This document shows positions 29,380 to 43,840 of a stretch of 64,000 nt of DNA, piece after piece; within the stretch, counting starts at the first letter, position 1; the number at the start of each line of letters is the position of its first letter. Made by a program: the position numbers and the translations under genes. Location: the NCBI RefSeq assembly GCF_946482605.1, contig NZ_CAMLSE010000014.1, positions 124,001-188,000 on the forward strand. The letters are read 5' to 3'. Under the pieces are notes generated by a model. It was given only the letters and a program-made list of their open reading frames with translations, was not told the DNA's origin and did not search any database. This DNA is from an uncultured Dyadobacter sp. (GTDB lineage: Bacteria > Bacteroidota > Bacteroidia > Cytophagales > Spirosomataceae).

Positions 29380-29441
29380 TTTAATGCCACGAAATGCATT
29401 GGTGCAATGTGGATTTCCACCAATGCATTCGTGGCATTAAA
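29380..29441. terminator. long inverted repeat, bidirectional terminator candidate
   Basis: Arms at 29380-29404 and 29418-29441 pair over 24 bp with a single bulged base around a 13-nt loop. The arms contain GCCACGAA.TGCATTGGTG and its complement. The element lies between two convergent operons and overlaps the stop of the minus-strand PepSY gene. A related repeat occurs at 30917-30984. Confidence 0.65.
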
Positions 29442-30909
29442 GACGGACCTTTCTCGAAATCCACTTCCAGGTCAGGACCAGCCCCGTGATACTTGCCAAA
29501 GTCCCGCCAGCCATCAGCAAAATCACAACAATATCCCACAAAGGTCTCCTGGAAACCAGCCATTGAAAATCCAGGCTGTGCAGCCCATGGTAAAGCCAGC
29601 GTTCCAACCGGCTCAGGTCCTGGTGTTTCAGTACCACCTGTGCGGTTTGTAAATCCACATAATACCAGGTTTCGTCCTCCGTGGCCATCTTAACCCGCAA
29701 TACGGGCAGCCGCTTGTCCGCATTCCTGGAATAGTAATAATCGTCATGATCCCGGAGCACTACCGCTTCCTTCACCGGCACACCCGGATTCATTTCCTTC
29801 AATTTCTTCACAAAACCGGCCGTGGGAAACTGCCGGAACGGCAATGCCGCCGCGCCCGCCGCCAATGCGCGCACATGCAGATCATCGGCATATGCGAGAT
29901 AGTACGGCTCGCCATTCCATTGCAGCAGATGCAGTTCCTTTACGCCCATAACAGGCTCGAATCGGTCAAACGCAGCCGCAGGTGCAACGGTAAACTGCTG
30001 CGTGTCAAGCACACCTCCCGCCCATCGCTCCGACTCTTCCGGCCCGAGCCTCGTGAAGGGCGCCCAGTCCCAGGGCGTCATGGACAGCAACCCGCTGAAC
30101 ACCCAGGTGAAAACGAGCAGCCCAAACACGAAACCGGTGTAATGGTGCCAGCGAAACCACTTCTTTTTGTACGGACTGAATGCCAGTCCGCGGTTCCGTT
30201 TGTAACGAACAAAACCCATTGCAATCCCGGCCACGCACATGATGGAGCCCAGCGACGACGTCCATACGATGATATCGTTCCAAAGCGGCCGGTTCCGGAG
30301 CAGTACCGTCGGATAGATCCAATGCGGGATGGGTCCCAGCCAGGCCAGAAACCGCTGCCTGGCATTTACCATTTGTACGACCTCGCCCGTCTGCACGGCT
30401 ACGTACACATAGGTATCCGCATTATCGCCCATCTCAATGCGGTAAACGGGCGTGGTGTATCCCTGCGATCGCGCGGCGGCCATCCATTGGTCGATCTCCG
30501 TCAGCAGCTTTACGCTTCGGGTTTTATTTAAATGTGTAAAATCAAAAGCCAGCCTGACCGCCAAAGCCGCATCCGCTCCATTGAACAACGTCCCGTCGTC
30601 GGCGAAAACAGCTTTGTATTCGCCCCTGATGGTGGAGAGCCGAAAAACCGGCCTGCCGAGCATCATCCCGATCCGCACCGAGCGCAATGTGTCGTGAACA
30701 CCCGCACGTTCCAATGCTTGCGAAACATTCAGTACCGCCTTTTCCAAGCGAGGCGGTTTCAGGCGTTGCAGTTTTTCGTGCTGGCGCATCGTCGGATATT
30801 TCACGTACATCATCGCGAAACCCGACAAGAACCAGATTACAAACAGCAGACTCAATGCAAAGCCCAGGTAGCGATACAGGAGCAGGGTTAGTTTGATTAA
30901 TTTCTTCAT
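29437..30909 (-). CDS. PepSY domain-containing membrane protein
   Basis: 490 residues from the ATG at 30909; a GTG at 30924 would add five residues taken from the repeat element. Transmembrane helices near 8-32, 190-212, 245-265 and 455-478. Conserved features include LLYRYLGFALSLLFVIWFLSG at the start, WFRWHHYTGF before the third helix, and YHGLHSLDFQWL near the end, with His residues suited to haem. It follows the TonB receptor gene (30991-33162) on the same strand after a structured repeat, so it probably belongs to the same riboswitch-controlled unit. It may act as a reductase for the imported metal complex. Confidence 0.88.
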   Translation of the reverse strand: MKKLIKLTLLLYRYLGFALSLLFVIWFLSGFAMMYVKYPTMRQHEKLQRLKPPRLEKAVLNVSQALERAGVHDTLRSVRIGMMLGRPVFRLSTIRGEYKAVFADDGTLFNGADAALAVRLAFDFTHLNKTRSVKLLTEIDQWMAAARSQGYTTPVYRIEMGDNADTYVYVAVQTGEVVQMVNARQRFLAWLGPIPHWIYPTVLLRNRPLWNDIIVWTSSLGSIMCVAGIAMGFVRYKRNRGLAFSPYKKKWFRWHHYTGFVFGLLVFTWVFSGLLSMTPWDWAPFTRLGPEESERWAGGVLDTQQFTVAPAAAFDRFEPVMGVKELHLLQWNGEPYYLAYADDLHVRALAAGAAALPFRQFPTAGFVKKLKEMNPGVPVKEAVVLRDHDDYYYSRNADKRLPVLRVKMATEDETWYYVDLQTAQVVLKHQDLSRLERWLYHGLHSLDFQWLVSRRPLWDIVVILLMAGGTLASITGLVLTWKWISRKVRL

Positions 30910-30916
30910 TCCTGCG

Positions 30917-30984
30917 TTTGCCACGAATGCACGGATGCGTCCGTGTTAATTCACGGTGTGCAGCTGTGGTGCATTCGCGGCAAA
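30917..30984. repeat. structured inverted repeat with GCCACGAATGCAC arms
   Basis: Outer arms TTTGCCACGAATGCAC (30917-30932) and GTGCATTCGCGGCAAA (30969-30984) pair at 15 of 16 positions. Two alternative inner hairpins are visible: ACGGA-TGCG-TCCGT (30931-30944) and CCGTG-TTAATT-CACGG (30941-30956). It lies between the receptor stop and the PepSY start and shares its arm sequence with the element at 29380-29441. Confidence 0.7.
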
Positions 30985-30990
30985 AAAATT

Positions 30991-33162
30991 TTAGAGACTA
31001 TATTTCAAACTAACCAGCAAATTCCGTGTAGCGCCCGGCGAAAACTGGTTCGCGTAAATCGCATTGGCATAGTAGCGCTCGTTGAACACGTTATTGACAT
31101 TCAACCGCAGCCCTACCCGCCCAACACGGTACCCTACCGCCAGATCAGCCAGCGTGTACGCCGGCATCACATAACTGTTCGCGCTGTTTGTAAATGTTTC
31201 ATCCATGTAATTGACACCGGCGCCGATGCTGGCACCTTTCAAAGCACCCTTTTGTGCTTCATAGTTCAGCCACACATTTACCATGTTTTCGGGTGCAAAA
31301 GCCACCTGTTTTCCGGCAACCGGATTGATCTCCGCGCCGTCGTGAGCCAGGTACTGCGCTTTGGTATAGGTATACCCTGCCGTCAGGTCCAGCCCGGGCG
31401 CGAGGTTTCCATTAATCTCAAACTCAAATCCTTTCGATTCTGCCGAACCGATGCGCTTGTAGATACCGCCCGGAAGGGCTTCCAGCTGGTTATTTTTACG
31501 CATATAATAGAATGCCAGGTTCGCAGCCCAATGCGCATTCATTTCCAGCCGGCTCCCTACTTCACCCTGGTAGCCCGTTTCCGGGTCGAACGTCTCCCCA
31601 TTCGGTGCTACACGGCGTGCAGGTTTGAAATAGGTAGAGTAAGAACCATATACCGATAGTACTTCCAAAGGCTGGTAAACCAACCCGGCGCGGTACGTCA
31701 ATGCCGCCTTCGAGACCTTGGATTCGGGCCCTTCCCCGGTCACGTTCCGGTCGGCATCCACCTGGTTGGTGTAGTAGGTACCACGGAAAATATCGTATCG
31801 CAAACCCACCAAACCTTTCAGCTTATCGCTGATTTTGATCCAGTCCTGGACGTAAATGCCGTGCACATTTTCCATAGTCGCCCGGTAATAAGTGTCCGTA
31901 AAATTGATATAACCCTGGTTCAGAACCGGGTTGCGTACCGACACGGAAGCATTCTTACCCGGCCCGAAAACGTCGCCATTATAGGTTTTGCGGTCCAGGA
32001 CACTCAGCGAATATCCCGCCAGCAGCTTGTGCGAAATGCCTTTGGTATCGAACCCATAAGTGAGTTCCAGCTGGTTTTGCAACGGTTTGGTGAGGTGGTT
32101 GAAATAGAACGGAAACGAACGGTTCAGCGAATCGAGCGTAGCATTGAAACTCAGCTCCTCGGTCGAGAAATAGTTGATATTATCGTCGTAATAAGACAAC
32201 TGGTCCGAGATCGTCAGGCCTGAATTGAACTTGTGCACGTATTTCAACTGGTAATCGTAGCGGCTATGTTTCAGGAAATCGGCCGGATCGTTGTAACGCG
32301 TATCGCGGTCCATCCCGGGTGCAAGTCTGCTGCCTTCCAGCATCGGCAGGCCGGTATCTGTATCGTAAATGTCTTTGTTGGCTCCGATTGTCAGATAAAA
32401 CAGGTCCCGTTCGTTAGGCGTGTATTCCAATGCGAGGTAACCATTGTTCGTGTTTGAGCCGGAGTGGCGGTAGCCGTCGGTATCCGACATCCCGAAATCG
32501 ACCCGGTAACGCAGTTTGTCGTTGATCGGGCCACCCGCACCGGCACGGATCCGGCGGGTATTGAAACTGCCGTAAGCAGCCGAGAAGTCGGCCTTAAAAT
32601 CGGCGCCGGGCCTTTTCCTTGCGATATTAATGATCCCTCCCAAAGCAGAATGCCCAAAAAGCACCGAGGCCGGACCTTTGAGTACCTCCACGCTTTCGAC
32701 GTTGGCCAGGTTGGTGCTCGGGGCACTCGTGGAGATGTTATGCCGCTCGTCGCGCACGCCATCGACCATCAATACAAAATTGGAAAAACCGCGGATCGTA
32801 AAATACTGAAAACCACCGTAAGTATTGTTGGCGCGGACGCCGGTGGTGTTCTTCATCGCTTCCTGCAAATCGTCGATCCCACGTTGTTCGATGGTGCGGA
32901 CCGACACCGCCGAAGTCGTCAGCGGCATATCCCGGACCGGCACGTCGATTTTGTTTACCGCAGCAAACGCATTGCGGCCAATGCCCGAAACGGTCACCTC
33001 CGACAAATGGTGGGTCCGTTCCACGCTGTCGGTCGACGTGGCCGGCTTGGTTTGTGCAAATGCACGGTCGTGCAGGGTCGCAGAGGCGACGACAGCCAAT
33101 GACCCTAAACAGATTTTCCTGAAACTGCCATTACGCGGGCAGCGGGGAGTAAAACTGAACAT
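30991..33162 (-). CDS. TonB-dependent siderophore-type receptor under a cobalamin riboswitch
   Basis: 723 residues. Signal peptide: basic MFSFTPRCPRNGSFRK, then GSLAVVASATLHDRAFAQ. The plug (about 60-200) contains VRTIEQRGIDDLQEAMKNTT and LVMDGVRDER-like and VEVLKGPASVLFGHSALGGI segments typical of the siderophore receptor subfamily. The barrel ends NLLVSLKYSL with terminal Leu. No CarboxypepD domain. The leader (33344-33657) is a cobalamin riboswitch, so the physiological substrate may be a corrinoid or cobalt chelate and not an iron siderophore. A PepSY gene follows. An inverted repeat, TTTTAACT / AGTTAAAA (33165-33196), just before the ATG could be the expression platform. Confidence 0.9.
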   Translation of the reverse strand: MFSFTPRCPRNGSFRKICLGSLAVVASATLHDRAFAQTKPATSTDSVERTHHLSEVTVSGIGRNAFAAVNKIDVPVRDMPLTTSAVSVRTIEQRGIDDLQEAMKNTTGVRANNTYGGFQYFTIRGFSNFVLMVDGVRDERHNISTSAPSTNLANVESVEVLKGPASVLFGHSALGGIINIARKRPGADFKADFSAAYGSFNTRRIRAGAGGPINDKLRYRVDFGMSDTDGYRHSGSNTNNGYLALEYTPNERDLFYLTIGANKDIYDTDTGLPMLEGSRLAPGMDRDTRYNDPADFLKHSRYDYQLKYVHKFNSGLTISDQLSYYDDNINYFSTEELSFNATLDSLNRSFPFYFNHLTKPLQNQLELTYGFDTKGISHKLLAGYSLSVLDRKTYNGDVFGPGKNASVSVRNPVLNQGYINFTDTYYRATMENVHGIYVQDWIKISDKLKGLVGLRYDIFRGTYYTNQVDADRNVTGEGPESKVSKAALTYRAGLVYQPLEVLSVYGSYSTYFKPARRVAPNGETFDPETGYQGEVGSRLEMNAHWAANLAFYYMRKNNQLEALPGGIYKRIGSAESKGFEFEINGNLAPGLDLTAGYTYTKAQYLAHDGAEINPVAGKQVAFAPENMVNVWLNYEAQKGALKGASIGAGVNYMDETFTNSANSYVMPAYTLADLAVGYRVGRVGLRLNVNNVFNERYYANAIYANQFSPGATRNLLVSLKYSL

Positions 33163-33196: not shown

Positions 33197-33343
33197 GCCC
33201 GTCAATCACTTTTCGGATGTTTTTCGAAGGGAGGAAGCAGAACGACAAAATGGAGCAGACAAAAGGACGTAGCAATCCCGCAGTATTCACCCATTATTCA
33301 GGTCCTGACTCAGCCTCACCTCGCGAAAGCATCATCAAAATCT

Positions 33344-33657
33344 AAAAGGCAGGTCTCCTGACTTGTAACATCTACGCCGTCCTTCCCGGGGAGTTTTAAT
33401 GAGTGAGTTTTGAATGAGTGAATGAGTGAATTTTGAATGATTGAATGACTGAATACTTTATTTTATTCACTTATTCACTAATTCGGCCATTCACTCATTG
33501 ACTAATTCGGTCATTCACTAATTCACTCATTGACTCATTGACTCATTCCCCCCCAGTGGACACCTTCTGGCATAGACTATCCCGTTACTTACAGTTGCGC
33601 GACAGCTCGTGATTTGCACACGATTCCCTATTAATTCACTGATTGTGAAACCTTTTT
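33344..33657 (-). promoter_or_regulatory. cobalamin (B12) riboswitch aptamer with a repeat insertion
   Basis: Minus strand, in order: P1 strand AAAAAGG, TGCAAATCACGAGCTGTC, GCAACTGTAA (33589-33598), ATGCCAGAAGGTGTCCACTG, then after the insertion GGGAAGG (33381-33387), AAGTCAGGAGACCTGCC and P1 strand CCTTTT. These are the conserved blocks of the RF00174 class. Between CCACTGGGG and CCCCGGGAAGG, normally a short variable hairpin, about 157 nt of GAATGA-type foldback repeat are inserted, closed by the G/C stem. The aptamer leads into the TonB receptor start at 33162 and should repress it when adenosylcobalamin is plentiful. Confidence 0.9.
33391..33547. repeat. GAATGA foldback repeat inside the riboswitch
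   Basis: On the plus strand the left part reads repeated GAATGAGT/GAATGA units with TTTTGAATGA; the right part reads the reverse complement type (TCACTCATTGACTAATTCGG), so the block folds back on itself. The same repeat family occurs at 43499-43840 and 51308-51431. Confidence 0.8.
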
Positions 33658-33693
33658 GATTGGAAAAATAAATTAAAGAACTTGTTTGAGGCG

Positions 33694-33769: not shown

Positions 33770-34114
33770 ATGGACAGAAACGTCGAGGCGCGCCTGCGGC
33801 ATTGGATATATGTGGATCAGGTCAAATTTTTCGGTCCGGGGCGGTATGAATTGCTGGAACGGATCGGAGAAACGGGGTCCATTGCGCAGGCTGCGAAAGA
33901 CATGGGCCTGTCTTACAAAAAAGCCTGGGCGATGATCGACGCGTTGAACACGCTCGGCAAAGAACCATACGTAGTAACCCAGAAAGGTGGTACCAAAGGC
34001 GGCGGCGCGATACTTACCGAAACCGCGAAGAACGTCATGAAAGCGTACAAAAGATTGAACGATAAACTACTGGCAGTCCTGGCCGAAGAGCCGGAGCTTT
34101 TATCACTCGTCTGA
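33770..34114 (+). CDS. ModE-like winged helix regulator (N-terminal domain only)
   Basis: 114 residues from the ATG at 33770; a TTG two codons earlier is less likely. The central segment IGETGSIAQAAKDMGLSYKKAWAMIDALN is at residues about 30-58 and aligns with the DNA-binding domain of E. coli ModE, followed by the wing KGGTKGGGAILTETA. It lacks the C-terminal TOBE/MOP molybdate-binding domains, as stand-alone ModE-type proteins do, so how it senses molybdate is unclear. It sits 81 nt before a TonB receptor gene that carries a ModE-like operator at its transcript start, and upstream of a molybdopterin-fold protein gene. Confidence 0.9.
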   Translation: MDRNVEARLRHWIYVDQVKFFGPGRYELLERIGETGSIAQAAKDMGLSYKKAWAMIDALNTLGKEPYVVTQKGGTKGGGAILTETAKNVMKAYKRLNDKLLAVLAEEPELLSLV

Positions 34115-34156
34115 CGCAATTCGTCAATTTTTTCCCGCACAATGTGAGGAACTCTA

Positions 34157-34164
34157 TATATTTG
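34157..34164 (+). promoter_or_regulatory. TAnnTTTG promoter element of the ModE-linked receptor operon
   Basis: TATATTTG, an exact consensus match 31 nt before the receptor ATG. The ModE-like operator overlaps its last bases and covers the predicted transcript start. Confidence 0.55.
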
Positions 34165-34190
34165 CGATATATCCGTTCGTACATATCGCA
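34163..34190. promoter_or_regulatory. ModE-type operator
   Basis: Perfect inverted repeat TGCGATAT / ATATCGCA (34163-34170 and 34183-34190). Within it, CGATATAT-N8-ACATATCG (34165-34188) has the layout of the E. coli modA operator as I recall it, CGTTATAT-N8-ACATAACG, with only the symmetric third base of each half changed. Its position over the transcript start predicts repression. Confidence 0.7.
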
Positions 34191-34195
34191 TTGCA

Positions 34196-36175
34196 ATGAG
34201 AAAACTTCTGCTTCCGTTACCGTTTCTGCTTCATCTTTCACTGGCCTGCATTGCGCAGGAAACGCCTTCCATGACCGATCGCACTTTCGAGCTCGGCGAA
34301 GTACGCGTCTCCGGCATCAATGCGAGAGATAGCATTTCTTCCCGGCTTTCCTACCAGACCATTGAAAAATTCAACCGTACCGATCTTTCCAATGCATTGA
34401 ACATTTTGCCCGGCGTAAGCATTGCCAACGTGGGCCCGCGCAACGAGTCGGTCGTGTATGTGCGCGGGTTCGACCTGCGCCAGGTACCCGTGTACATCGA
34501 CGGTGTGCCCGTGTATGTGCCCTACGACGGCTATGTGGACATGGGACGCTTTACCACTTTCGACCTCGCGGAAGTAAATGTTTCCAAAGGCTTTGCCTCC
34601 ATTCTCTATGGTGCCAACACCATGGGCGGAGCGATCAACCTTGTTTCGCGTAAGCCGGCTAGCAAATTCGAGATCAACGGGCGCGCAGGTGTTTTCAGCG
34701 GCGACGGCTATCGCTGGAACGTGAATGCGGGTTCAAGGCTGGGCAGGTTCTTTTATCAGGTAGGTGCTTCTCAACTCAAACAAGACACGTATCCCCTTTC
34801 CGACGATTTCAAACGGCGGAAATACCAGCAAACCGGCGACCGCCAAAATGCTTATCGTAACGACCTTAAATTCAGCGCCAAGGTCGGCTTTACACCCAAT
34901 GATACGGATGAGTATGTGATTGGGTATGTCAATCAGCGCGGCGAAAAAGGCACACCTCCCTATGTAGGGGATGACTCCAAGATCACGACGCGCTTCTGGA
35001 AATGGCCGGAATGGAACAAACAGAGCCTGTATTTCATCTCAAACACCGCGGTAGGAGAAAAAAACAAAGTCAAAACGCGGCTGTACTATGATACTTTCGT
35101 GAATTCGCTGTTCAGCTACGACGACACGACCTACACGGCTCAAACCAAAGGTTATGCATTCCAGAGTTATTACGACGACTACACCCTGGGCGGTAACGCG
35201 GAGTTTGAATCGCGCGCATGGAAGAACAATGTGTTCAAATTCAATGTGCAGTACAAACGCGACGTGCACCGCGAACACGATCTGGGCGAGCCGATTCAAA
35301 CGTACGTCGACAATACGCTGTCTGTCGGAATCGAAAATACCTACCAGATCGTCCCGTCGCTTTCTGTCGTTCCCGGGATCAGTTTCAATACCCGGAATGC
35401 TGGCGAAGCGCAGGAATACAATGCGACGACCAAGGAGCTGACCAGTTTTGCTGACAGTAAAAACAATGCGGTCAATGCGCAGATCGGGCTGTTCTGGGAC
35501 GTTACCAGCAACCATTCCCTGCGCGGGTCGGTAGCGCGCAAAACACGTTTCGCAACCATCAAAGACCGTTACTCTTACCGCATGGGCCAGGCCATTCCGA
35601 ACCCCGATCTCCATGCCGAAGCAGCGTTGAACTACGACCTCAGCTATTCGGGTAAAGTCGCCGGAAAACTTGCATTGCAGGCCAGCCTCTTCCAGAGCAA
35701 CATCGACGACATCATTCAGCAGGTCGACAACGTCCAGCCGAACAAATTCCAGTTACAAAATGCCGGAAAAGCACGTTTTTACGGAGCGGAAGCGGGTTTT
35801 GATTACCAGGTCGCCCGTGGTCTGAAACTGGGTTCGAACTACTCGTTCATCAAGCGCAAGAACAAAACCAACCCGGCCATCCTGTTCACCAACGTGCCGG
35901 AGCACAAGGTGTTTACTTATGCCGACCTCTCACTTCTGAAAGTAGCGCACATCCTCGCCAGCCTTGAACATAATAGCAGCCGTAACAGCACCAGCTATGG
36001 CACCAGGGCCGGATCCTACACGCTCGTGAATGCAAAGGCTTCCGTAAAACTGTATAAATTCATTTCCGTGGAAGGTGGCGTCAACAACATTTTCGACCGG
36101 AATTACAGTCTGGTCGAAGGCTTCCCGGAGGCAGGCAGAAATTTCTTTGTGAACCTGGTTTTTAACTATTTCTGA
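34196..36175 (+). CDS. TonB-dependent receptor linked to ModE
   Basis: 659 residues, of BtuB-like size. Signal peptide KLLLPLPFLLHLSLACIAQ. The plug (about 35-150) contains TDLSNALNILPGVSIANVGPR, positions about 62-82, and VNVSKGFASILYGANTMGGA; the barrel ends FFVNLVFNYF with the terminal Phe needed for assembly. No N-terminal carboxypeptidase-like domain. The operator and neighbours (ModE-like gene before; di-haem peroxidase 33 nt and molybdopterin-fold gene later) suggest control by molybdenum or tungsten. The substrate may be molybdate bound to a chelator. This is inference; the receptor itself shows no metal-specific motif I know. Confidence 0.9.
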   Translation: MRKLLLPLPFLLHLSLACIAQETPSMTDRTFELGEVRVSGINARDSISSRLSYQTIEKFNRTDLSNALNILPGVSIANVGPRNESVVYVRGFDLRQVPVYIDGVPVYVPYDGYVDMGRFTTFDLAEVNVSKGFASILYGANTMGGAINLVSRKPASKFEINGRAGVFSGDGYRWNVNAGSRLGRFFYQVGASQLKQDTYPLSDDFKRRKYQQTGDRQNAYRNDLKFSAKVGFTPNDTDEYVIGYVNQRGEKGTPPYVGDDSKITTRFWKWPEWNKQSLYFISNTAVGEKNKVKTRLYYDTFVNSLFSYDDTTYTAQTKGYAFQSYYDDYTLGGNAEFESRAWKNNVFKFNVQYKRDVHREHDLGEPIQTYVDNTLSVGIENTYQIVPSLSVVPGISFNTRNAGEAQEYNATTKELTSFADSKNNAVNAQIGLFWDVTSNHSLRGSVARKTRFATIKDRYSYRMGQAIPNPDLHAEAALNYDLSYSGKVAGKLALQASLFQSNIDDIIQQVDNVQPNKFQLQNAGKARFYGAEAGFDYQVARGLKLGSNYSFIKRKNKTNPAILFTNVPEHKVFTYADLSLLKVAHILASLEHNSSRNSTSYGTRAGSYTLVNAKASVKLYKFISVEGGVNNIFDRNYSLVEGFPEAGRNFFVNLVFNYF

Positions 36176-36208
36176 CCCATGCAGGGGCTGCGGGAAATTC
36201 AAAACATA

Positions 36209-37312
36209 ATGCGTCTGAAAAGATCGGGCTGGGTCCTAACCGGCCTGATTGCTTCCTTTTGCCTGTTTTGCAGTCTGGTTTGCACGACCGGCCGCGCACC
36301 CGAGCCATTTACATTGGCATACCCGGCCAACTTCGGTTCACGTTTCACGATCCCTGCGGATAATCCAACCACGAAAGAAGGCGTGTACCTGGGCAGGATG
36401 TTGTTTTACGAGAAGCAGCTTTCGGCTAACAATAAACTGTCGTGCGAAAGCTGCCACGAGCAAAAACTGGCCTTTACCGACGGACGGCCCGCCAGCCTGG
36501 GTGTTGACGGCCGCTTCACGCCGCGGAGTTCCATGTCGCTGGCCAATCTGCTGTGGGTTCGCAATTTTTTCTGGGACGGCCGTTCGCAAAGTCTCGAAGA
36601 GCAAGCCGCATTCCCCCTCACCGATCCACATGAAATGGGCCAGTCACTTACAGAATCGGCCAGGAAACTGAGCAACACCGCTCCCTATCCAGCCCTTTTT
36701 CAAACTGTATTCGGGAACCCGGGCATTACCGGGCAAAACATTCTGAAAGCGCTGGCGCAGTTTGAAAGAACGCTCATTTCTGCCGATTCGCCTTACGATC
36801 GTTACCTGGCAGGAAAGTACCAGCCTACTGCCGCCGAAATGCGCGGCTTGTTCCTGTTTGAGAATGCCCCGGATGCTAAAAAAGGACTTCGCGGCGCCAA
36901 TTGCGGGCATTGCCACGGCGGACCGAAGACTTTCAAGGAGCTTTTTCACAACAATGGCCTCGATAGTATTTTCACTGATGCAGGCCGGGAGAAAGTAACG
37001 GGTCAGTCCATGGACAAAGGTCGTTTCCGCGTGCCTACGCTGCGCAACATCATGCTCACGGCGCCCTACATGCACGACGGCCGCTTTCAAACGATCCGGG
37101 AGGTACTCGACCATTACAGCGACCACGTTCAGCAAAGTGAGACGCTGAGCAGTTTTTTACAGGATATTTCGAATGAAGCAAATGGTCAATCACTTGCATT
37201 GCGTGATACCGAAAAAACCGACATCATCGCCTTTCTGGGCATGCTCACCGACTCTGCCTTCGTCACCAATCCGGCATTTTCAAACCCACATTCCATTTCA
37301 AAAGCCCAATAA
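36209..37312 (+). CDS. di-haem cytochrome c peroxidase / MauG family protein
   Basis: 367 residues from the ATG at 36209, chosen because it starts the signal sequence (GWVLTGLIASFCLFCSLVC); an ATG at 36179 would add ten residues. Two haem sites are visible: CESCH near residue 80 and CGHCH near 232. Other conserved features are YLGRMLFYEKQLSANNKLSC before the first haem, RNFFWDGRSQSLEEQA and RVPTLRNIMLTAPYMHDGRF near the second. It acts in the periplasm, reducing peroxide or modifying a protein side chain. It follows the receptor gene closely, probably in one operon with it. Confidence 0.92.
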   Translation: MRLKRSGWVLTGLIASFCLFCSLVCTTGRAPEPFTLAYPANFGSRFTIPADNPTTKEGVYLGRMLFYEKQLSANNKLSCESCHEQKLAFTDGRPASLGVDGRFTPRSSMSLANLLWVRNFFWDGRSQSLEEQAAFPLTDPHEMGQSLTESARKLSNTAPYPALFQTVFGNPGITGQNILKALAQFERTLISADSPYDRYLAGKYQPTAAEMRGLFLFENAPDAKKGLRGANCGHCHGGPKTFKELFHNNGLDSIFTDAGREKVTGQSMDKGRFRVPTLRNIMLTAPYMHDGRFQTIREVLDHYSDHVQQSETLSSFLQDISNEANGQSLALRDTEKTDIIAFLGMLTDSAFVTNPAFSNPHSISKAQ

Positions 37313-37313
37313 C

Positions 37314-37826
37314 ATGCAAAATATCAATAAATTACGATCAAAAAACCTCTGGCTGCTCGCAGTACTTTGCAGCCTTCACATTTCAGTTTGGGGTCAAACC
37401 GCCGCCACCCTGACCATTTCCGGAGAGGTAACCACCCCGCTCGAACTGAAAATACAGGACCTGACCGCGATGAAGCAGGTAAGTGCCAAAGTAAAAGATC
37501 GCGATGGAAAGGAGCACGAGTTCAAAGGCGTCGCATTGATCCAGCTGCTTGAAAAAGCCGGCGTCACCACAGGAGCCAAACTGAGAGGTGAAAATCTTGC
37601 CAAATATGCGTTAATCACCGCCGCAGACGGCTATGAAGTGCTTTATGCGCTGGCCGAGATCGACCCGGAATTCGCAGATCAGGTGATCCTGCTTGCGACT
37701 GAAAAAGACGGGCAGCCATTACCCGCCGGTGAAGGCCCGTTCCGCATCATCGCCCCCGGAGACAAAAAGCCTGCGCGGTGGATTCGTGAAGTAAGAAGTA
37801 TTAAAATTGCATTTGCCAAAAACTGA
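37314..37826 (+). CDS. oxidoreductase molybdopterin-binding-fold protein, exported
   Basis: 170 residues from the ATG at 37314, one base after the peroxidase stop codon, so translation is coupled. Signal peptide NLWLLAVLCSLHISVWGQ. The mature part (LTISGEVTTPLELKIQDLTA, then KGVALIQLLEKAGV, YALITAADGYEVLYALAEID and GPFRIIAPGDKKPARWIREV) is the small SUOX-type fold. The Cys that ligates Mo in sulfite oxidase-type enzymes is absent, so cofactor binding is doubtful. Its place in a ModE-controlled operon makes a role with molybdenum or its cofactor attractive but unproven. Confidence 0.8.
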   Translation: MQNINKLRSKNLWLLAVLCSLHISVWGQTAATLTISGEVTTPLELKIQDLTAMKQVSAKVKDRDGKEHEFKGVALIQLLEKAGVTTGAKLRGENLAKYALITAADGYEVLYALAEIDPEFADQVILLATEKDGQPLPAGEGPFRIIAPGDKKPARWIREVRSIKIAFAKN

Positions 37827-43498: not shown

Positions 43499-43840
43499 GC
43501 CGCCGTGGAACGGGGAATTTTGAATGAGGGAATTTTGAATGACTGAATGACTGAATGACCGAATGAGTCGCCGTGGAACGGGGAATGAGTGAATTTTGAA
43601 TGAGTGAATATGCTGTTAGGTTGCATTAAACTGGTAATGTCAGAACTTTTTAGTCGTCGCTTTGGTCACTCATTCCCGTTACACGGCGGCATCAGTCATT
43701 CCCCGTTCTACCGCGGTCCATTCAATCATTCACACATTCACACATTCACTCATTCACTCAATCACTCATTCCCCGTTCCACGGCGGCTCATTCACTCATT
43801 CCCCGTTCCACGACGGCTCATTCACACATTCCCTCATTGA
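43499..43840. repeat. GAATGA/CCGCCGTGGAACGGGGAA foldback repeat array
   Basis: The left half repeats TTTTGAATGA, GAATGACT and CGCCGTGGAACGGGGAA units; the right half, from about 43675, repeats their reverse complements (TTCCCCGTTCCACGGCGGC, TCACTCATTCAC). A unique stretch of about 60 nt separates the halves. It fills the whole gap between two convergent genes and supplies the stop codons of both. No gene is present; small ORFs here are low-complexity repeat readings. Confidence 0.85.

Follow-up and report, generated by a model that had tools for sequence, protein, structure and literature searches.

A probable molybdenum-uptake locus of an uncultured Dyadobacter sp.

We analysed a 64,000-nt stretch of DNA from an uncultured Dyadobacter sp., a soil-type bacterium (contig NZ_CAMLSE010000014.1, positions 124,001 to 188,000; hereafter the window). 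Four consecutive forward-strand genes in it encode a ModE-type DNA-binding protein, a TonB-dependent receptor (TBDR), a di-haem enzyme and a protein of family PF00174, and a putative operator lies between the first two. The ModE protein (33770-34114, +) is a stand-alone DNA-binding domain (DBD) of 114 aa. Alignment, TIGR00637 (86.7 bits, E 8.7e-25, below the curated cut-off of 98.5) and matches to the PDB entries 2ijl (70.1 bits, 1.4e-18) and 1b9m (ModE; 56 bits, 3.3e-14) all identify a ModE-type winged-helix domain. The Mop domains of a full ModE regulator are absent from the 114 residues.

The operator core, CGATATAT-N8-ACATATCG (34165-34188), starts 50 nt past the modE stop codon, as an initial annotation of the sequence had placed it, and contains the half-sites CGnTAT and ATAnCG, 12 nt apart, an arrangement that recurs near molybdenum (Mo) genes in relatives. 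This is the only position in the window within three mismatches of the operator (two mismatches on the other strand), and shuffled windows contain a mean of 0.26 operator matches each. The core is as first described, but the inverted repeat is not perfect, since the wider arms (34163-34175 and 34178-34190) are complementary at only 11 of 13 positions. Nor does the core itself overlap the promoter. The TATATTTG box (34157-34164, +), a putative Bacteroidota -7-type promoter element matching what we take to be the consensus for the phylum, TAnnTTTG, ends where the core begins, and only the two outermost bases of the wider left arm extend into it.

The receptor (34196-36175, +; 659 aa) has both the plug (PF07715, 75 bits) and the beta-barrel (PF00593, 102.8 bits) above cut-off, and is 86-89% identical to receptors of Dyadobacter sp. 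SG02, D. soli and D. fermentans. Its AlphaFold2 (AF2) model (pLDDT 81.1) matches BtuB, OprC, PqqU and others in the PDB, among them copper, iron, B12 and pyrroloquinoline quinone (PQQ) receptors. The di-haem enzyme (36179-37312, +) is of the MbnH/MauG/CCP kind (PF03150, 194.7 bits) and has a putative signal peptide and two CxxCH haem sites, which recur in all nine di-haem sequences checked, window included. Its best PDB match is 6e1c, presumably MbnH, and it scores 260.7 bits with TIGR04039, short of the MbnH cut-off of 362.85.

The last gene (37314-37826, +) encodes a PF00174 protein (46.5 bits) of 170 aa. It had been annotated as an exported molybdopterin-fold protein, and has a putative signal peptide. 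The Mo-ligand Cys of a sulfite oxidase (SUOX) molybdoenzyme is missing: no Cys is conserved in the mature protein, with one occurring in 1 of 44 alignment rows at each of two columns. The AF2 model (pLDDT 87.7) is closest to PruR and sulfite-oxidase domains in Foldseek and VIA, with PruR ranked first in Foldseek; there is no match to PruR by sequence. Like PruR, the protein combines a SUOX fold and a length of about 170 aa with the lack of the Mo-ligand Cys. Tyr107 (44 of 44 rows) and Trp156 (43 of 44) are conserved in the alignment and are candidate counterparts of the pterin-binding Tyr104 and Trp160 of PruR. Family searches revealed no recognisable molybdoenzyme among the other genes of the window operon.

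Conservation of the operator beside modE

We collected 80 loci with a relative of the window ModE, the best 80 of 385 confirmed, giving 81 with the window. In 34 of the 81, the first 300 nt behind the modE stop codon contain a fully palindromic 12/12 site, CGWTAT-N12-ATAWCG, which occurs not once in the 747,192 nt of upstream flank of the modE loci; the number expected after modE is 0.0 (50 mononucleotide shuffles per stretch). Lack of conservation beside orthologues had been named beforehand as an outcome that would refute the initial interpretation; the site is kept. The inverted repeat of the window is thus, by sequence prediction, a conserved ModE-type operator.

A receptor, di-haem or PF00174 gene follows modE in 28 loci, of which 25, window included, were aligned over the promoter and operator (L069, L070 and L076 were left out). 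Conservation is concentrated in the half-sites and the TAnnTTTG box, with poorly conserved flanks. The half-site columns reach 100% partly because the 12/12 site served as the alignment anchor; the third base of the half-site, at which the pattern allows either A or T, is nevertheless A in all 25. In the box, T(-8), A(-7) and T(-2) are each present in 24 of the 25 loci, T(-3) in 25 and G(-1) in 22. L069 and L070 have a 12/12 site and L076 an 11/12 site, and the TTTG box before the site is absent from all three.

The genes beside modE in the 80 loci were classed by reference-protein matches. The receptor occupies the slot after modE in 18 loci (once as a fragment), a di-haem gene comes first in 3, a PF00174 gene in 6 (with a convergent one in 1 more), modA or modB in 7, and a larger, 850-aa receptor (TBDR-L) in 4. 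A further 26 have modE beside a Mo cofactor (Moco) synthesis cluster, TauE-moeA-moaA-moaC-moaE-moeB-mobA-xdhC-cysteine desulfurase; this class includes L049, which shows only the TauE end, L062, also cut by a contig end, and L041, whose cluster lies 3.7 kb from modE. A 12/12 site is nearby in 18/18 receptor, 3/3 di-haem, 5/6 PF00174, 6/7 mod and 2/4 TBDR-L loci, and an 11/12 site is near modE in L076, L032 and L077; L072 has no site of at least 11/12 near modE. All 23 Moco loci with the cluster head in range have an 11/12 or 12/12 site at that head, abutted by TTG on the cluster strand in 22. Family searches on L037 and L047 confirmed modA, modB and moaA, while modC, MoeA, MoaC, MoaE, XdhC and TauE were matched by Pfam or under curated cut-offs. 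The Moco cluster of Flagellimonas/Allomuricauda has TauE at its end. In Chitinophaga, an 11/12 site lies roughly 4 kb upstream of modE in both L077 (6324) and L072 (6340); that of L077 precedes an apparent Mo-hydroxylase FeS subunit gene, after which a large subunit gene and one more gene lead up to modE.

Operon with molybdate pump genes in relatives

In Chryseolinea serpens DSM 24574 (L036) the order modE-site-TBDR-dihaem-PF00174-modA-modB-modC runs along one strand. Successive genes from the receptor to modB are separated by 3 to 42 nt when each frame is taken to start at its first Met, modC overlaps modB, and the receptor is 66% identical to that of the window. The order is modE-site-PF00174-modABC in Pararhodonellum (L069) and in a Cyclobacteriaceae strain (L070). 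The genes studied here are thus operonic with modABC in these three relatives and not in the window itself, and only C. serpens, among the loci examined, has receptor and modABC together. Its gene order is a more direct link between the window operon and molybdate uptake than the operator.

Co-occurrence across Dyadobacter and the order

Forty-eight genomes of Dyadobacter (the genus of D. beijingensis) were searched at thresholds of E <= 1e-150 for the receptor and E <= 1e-27 for the PF00174 protein. The ModE-DBD is present in 31 and modA in all 48. Every one of the 19 genomes with the receptor has ModE (hypergeometric 1.2e-5), as does every one of the 26 with the PF00174 protein (6e-9; partial in G025, and with a 31%-identical match in the ModE-minus G050 set aside). 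The same is true of the 19 with a close TBDR-L, which is split in G037. The two receptor types are no more than distant relatives (28% identity over 185 aa), and at least one of them is found in 28 of 31 ModE-containing genomes versus none of the 17 ModE-minus ones.

The pattern CGWTATN10AYATAWCG matches at 54 distinct places in these genomes, 50 of them in genomes with ModE. Of the latter, 45 precede genes of the four kinds already described: the receptor in 21 cases (three away from modE, and one receptor a fragment), TBDR-L in 13, a PF00174 gene in 10 (five away from modE; the one in G008 is separated from its site by a receptor remnant) and the di-haem gene in one. Two more are next to a Mo-hydroxylase [2Fe-2S] subunit gene (G029, G037), one precedes a YeiH-family permease and two are inside reading frames. 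The close TBDR-L has a site in 19 of 19 genomes (13 at 12/12, 6 at 11/12), whereas none of five distant TBDR-L paralogues sampled has one. Most targets away from modE retain a site, an indication that the site follows its targets and not merely modE. Two Dyadobacter loci (L001, L002) have modE with neither an adjacent receptor operon nor an adjacent operator; the second genome (G010) keeps a site at TBDR-L.

At the level of the order, the receptor was found at the same cut-off in 6 of 291 genomes, all six with modE and/or a site upstream. It stands beside modE with a site in G007 (C. serpens), G034, G249 (L034), G138 and G225, and away from modE with a site in G026. The receptors of G138 and G225 are 51-53% identical to that of the window (tblastn check) and their sites are 11/12; in G138 a downstream gene encodes a product similar to the PF00174 protein on visual inspection, though not by score. 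Of the four sites in Emticicia C21 (G334), the three that were read are at a PF00174 gene, at TBDR-L and at a TauE-type permease, and E. agri has one at the same permease. TBDR-L, of about 850 aa (L194, 1169-3760, -; L057, 10402-12939, +; L077, 10387-12951, +), bears the operator in Dyadobacter, Emticicia C21 and a Bacteroides metagenome-assembled genome, and an 11/12 version in Chitinophaga rupis. The Emticicia permease gene, of TauE/SafE type (operator at L090 1501 and L221 1501), is a candidate oxyanion transporter.

A proposed function in molybdenum import

We consider it likely that the window operon serves TonB-dependent import of Mo, under repression by ModE in Mo-sufficient cells. The ModE-DBD would bind the operator just past the -7 box, at the expected transcript start, a position that suggests repression, and would block transcription at sufficient Mo (or tungsten, W); shortage would lift the block. 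Mo or W is the probable signal because the operator also sits at modABC and Moco genes, and the operon with modABC points to Mo as the cargo. The receptor would then pull a scarce Mo-containing ligand into the periplasm. Molybdate is usually assumed to reach ModABC via porins; since free molybdate should pass these, the ligand is probably a chelate. The di-haem enzyme and the PruR-like protein may handle it, oxidising or splitting the chelator and binding a pterin-like or Mo-bearing part, and ModABC, whose genes belong to the same operon in C. serpens and lie at a separate locus in Dyadobacter, would bring the released oxyanion into the cytoplasm. A more specific version, which we regard as possible though rather unlikely, is that the cargo is pterin-bound Mo (Moco, its breakdown products or Mo-pterin chelates), scavenged through the receptor, a PruR-like holder, di-haem oxidation to molybdate, and ModABC, under a ModE that would sense Mo with no Mop domain. 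This would amount to outer-membrane salvage of a cofactor metal.

Several observations weigh against Mo import under ModE control. Dyadobacter modABC has no 12/12 site in any of the 20 modA loci read (of 48 genomes), and the single 11/12 match among them is in a ModE-minus genome (L140). No Mop domain (TIGR00638) was found in the 48 Dyadobacter and 11 other genomes, although a very divergent Mop could escape the search; a control search was positive in 5 of 14 named genomes, one a Bacteroides. No known molybdate sensor therefore accompanies the Dyadobacter ModE, so that the annotated molybdenum control, which fits the presence of regulator and operator at modABC and Moco genes in other Bacteroidota, is drawn from the target genes. 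Receptors of known cargo are only distant relatives of the window receptor. Fifteen of the 80 ModE loci have no marker gene nearby (three with a generic ABC ATPase match only) and no site of at least 11/12 near modE, and other order-level sites are in or near genes with no apparent tie to Mo (L212, L216, L218, L220). Two of the 31 ModE-containing Dyadobacter genomes (G027, G031) lack a pattern match and have only 11/12 sites, at TBDR-L, and in G008 the best site at a PF00174 gene beside a broken receptor (L191) is 9/12 in the 7 kb read. Finally, L004, L009 and L010 lack an intact di-haem gene, which is absent, fragmentary or split there. The receptor and PF00174 genes stay in these loci, and the di-haem gene may thus be dispensable.

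Part of this evidence could also be accommodated if the receptor belongs to the ModE regulon and carries something else, such as a molybdoenzyme substrate, or iron, copper or a siderophore alongside Mo-dependent metabolism. The E. coli ModE regulon also takes in molybdoenzyme genes, the sites by Mo-hydroxylase genes in G029 and G037 would fit such a regulon, the structural matches of the receptor span copper, iron, B12 and PQQ receptors, and the di-haem enzyme resembles MbnH, known from copper/methanobactin operons. We nevertheless think this unlikely, given the receptor in one operon with modABC in C. serpens, the lack of a recognisable molybdoenzyme in the window operon, and two distantly related receptors under the same control. 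The SUOX fold without the Mo-ligand Cys, together with the top Foldseek rank of PruR, brings to mind a module for pterin sensing or signalling, in which the PruR-like protein would be the main actor and the receptor would import the pterin signal. The available text on PruR describes it as binding pterins and modulating DcpA (PMC13259868). The window protein differs in that no DcpA-like or DTB-like gene was found among the window neighbours scanned, in its place in Mo-uptake operons and in that pterin binding would be by analogy only; its gene is, moreover, coupled to modABC in L036, L069 and L070, and we judge signalling quite improbable.

We hold it to be just as improbable that the system serves tungstate instead of molybdate. 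ModE-type regulators and ModA are able to accept either oxyanion, and genomics cannot separate the two, but the pump genes of L037 score 170.9 (modA) and 229 bits (modB), above cut-off and far over WtpA, WtpB and TupB. That the inverted repeat is a chance palindrome or a linkage relic with no regulatory role seems to us extremely improbable. It is short and AT-rich, and close relatives share it by descent; this is difficult to reconcile with a site kept at eight targets away from modE (three receptors and five PF00174 genes), with upstream flanks free of it, and with ModE-minus genomes whose four sites are all inside reading frames (by our own calls).

The proposed import of Mo under ModE control would combine elements of known systems. 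The DNA-binding domain is homologous to that of E. coli ModE, and the half-sites match the E. coli operator consensus ATCGNTATATA-N6-TATATANCGAT, as quoted in the available part of PMC545781. As in the E. coli ModE/modABC system, modABC follows modE and a site in Chryseolinea, Cyclobacterium and Lunatibacter. Unlike in E. coli, the Dyadobacter ModE has no Mop half, outer-membrane receptors are among the targets, and the operator abuts a Bacteroidota-type box. A DNA-binding domain alone is shared with Desulfovibrio ModE, whose Mo-sensing mechanism is called 'not clear' in the same available part and which is described there as having no E. coli-type sites but a CGGTCACG-N14 motif (PMC545781); Dyadobacter and its relatives, in contrast, have clear E. 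coli-type sites. How DBD-only ModE proteins sense Mo is an older question, which a ModE regulon in genomes where no Mop domain was found makes testable in a culturable environmental genus.

Methanobactin mbn operons comprise the MbnT receptor, MbnH and MbnP. The window likewise has a TonB receptor beside a MauG/MbnH-like di-haem enzyme, but its partners are not MbnP-like by family, the enzyme misses the TIGR04039 cut-off, and a ModE-type operator and a SUOX-fold partner are present instead. The nearest described outer-membrane molybdate route that we found is ModA-IcmP of P. aeruginosa, linked to a type VI secretion system and involving molybdate uptake via an outer-membrane protein; the available text of the two papers mentions neither a TonB receptor nor a ModE operator for it (PMC8602904, PMC11734730). 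No report of a ModE-controlled TonB receptor was found in the literature searched, which mostly left out subscription papers, and this combination of a known regulator family with a known receptor class is, as far as searched, unreported. The same operon running into molybdate pump genes in a relative suggests that some bacteria actively bring molybdenum across the outer membrane. If this is true, two TonB receptors that are only distant relatives, both under ModE-type operators and one of them operonic with modABC in a relative, would place Mo among the metals that a large phylum actively imports through its outer membrane, and an undescribed Mo chelate would be predicted.

Neighbouring features of the window

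Back to back with modE stands a unit comprising a cobalamin riboswitch (RF00174, 89 bits; 33331-33670, -) upstream of a siderophore-type TonB receptor (30991-33162, -) and a PepSY_TM protein (29437-30924, -), so that a siderophore-class receptor is apparently under a B12 switch. Within the riboswitch match, 33391-33548 consists of tandem repeats of the 8-mers TGAATGAG and ATTCACTC, where a 157-nt insertion interrupts one hairpin loop of the riboswitch alignment. Repeats of a similar kind are found again at 43513-43838.
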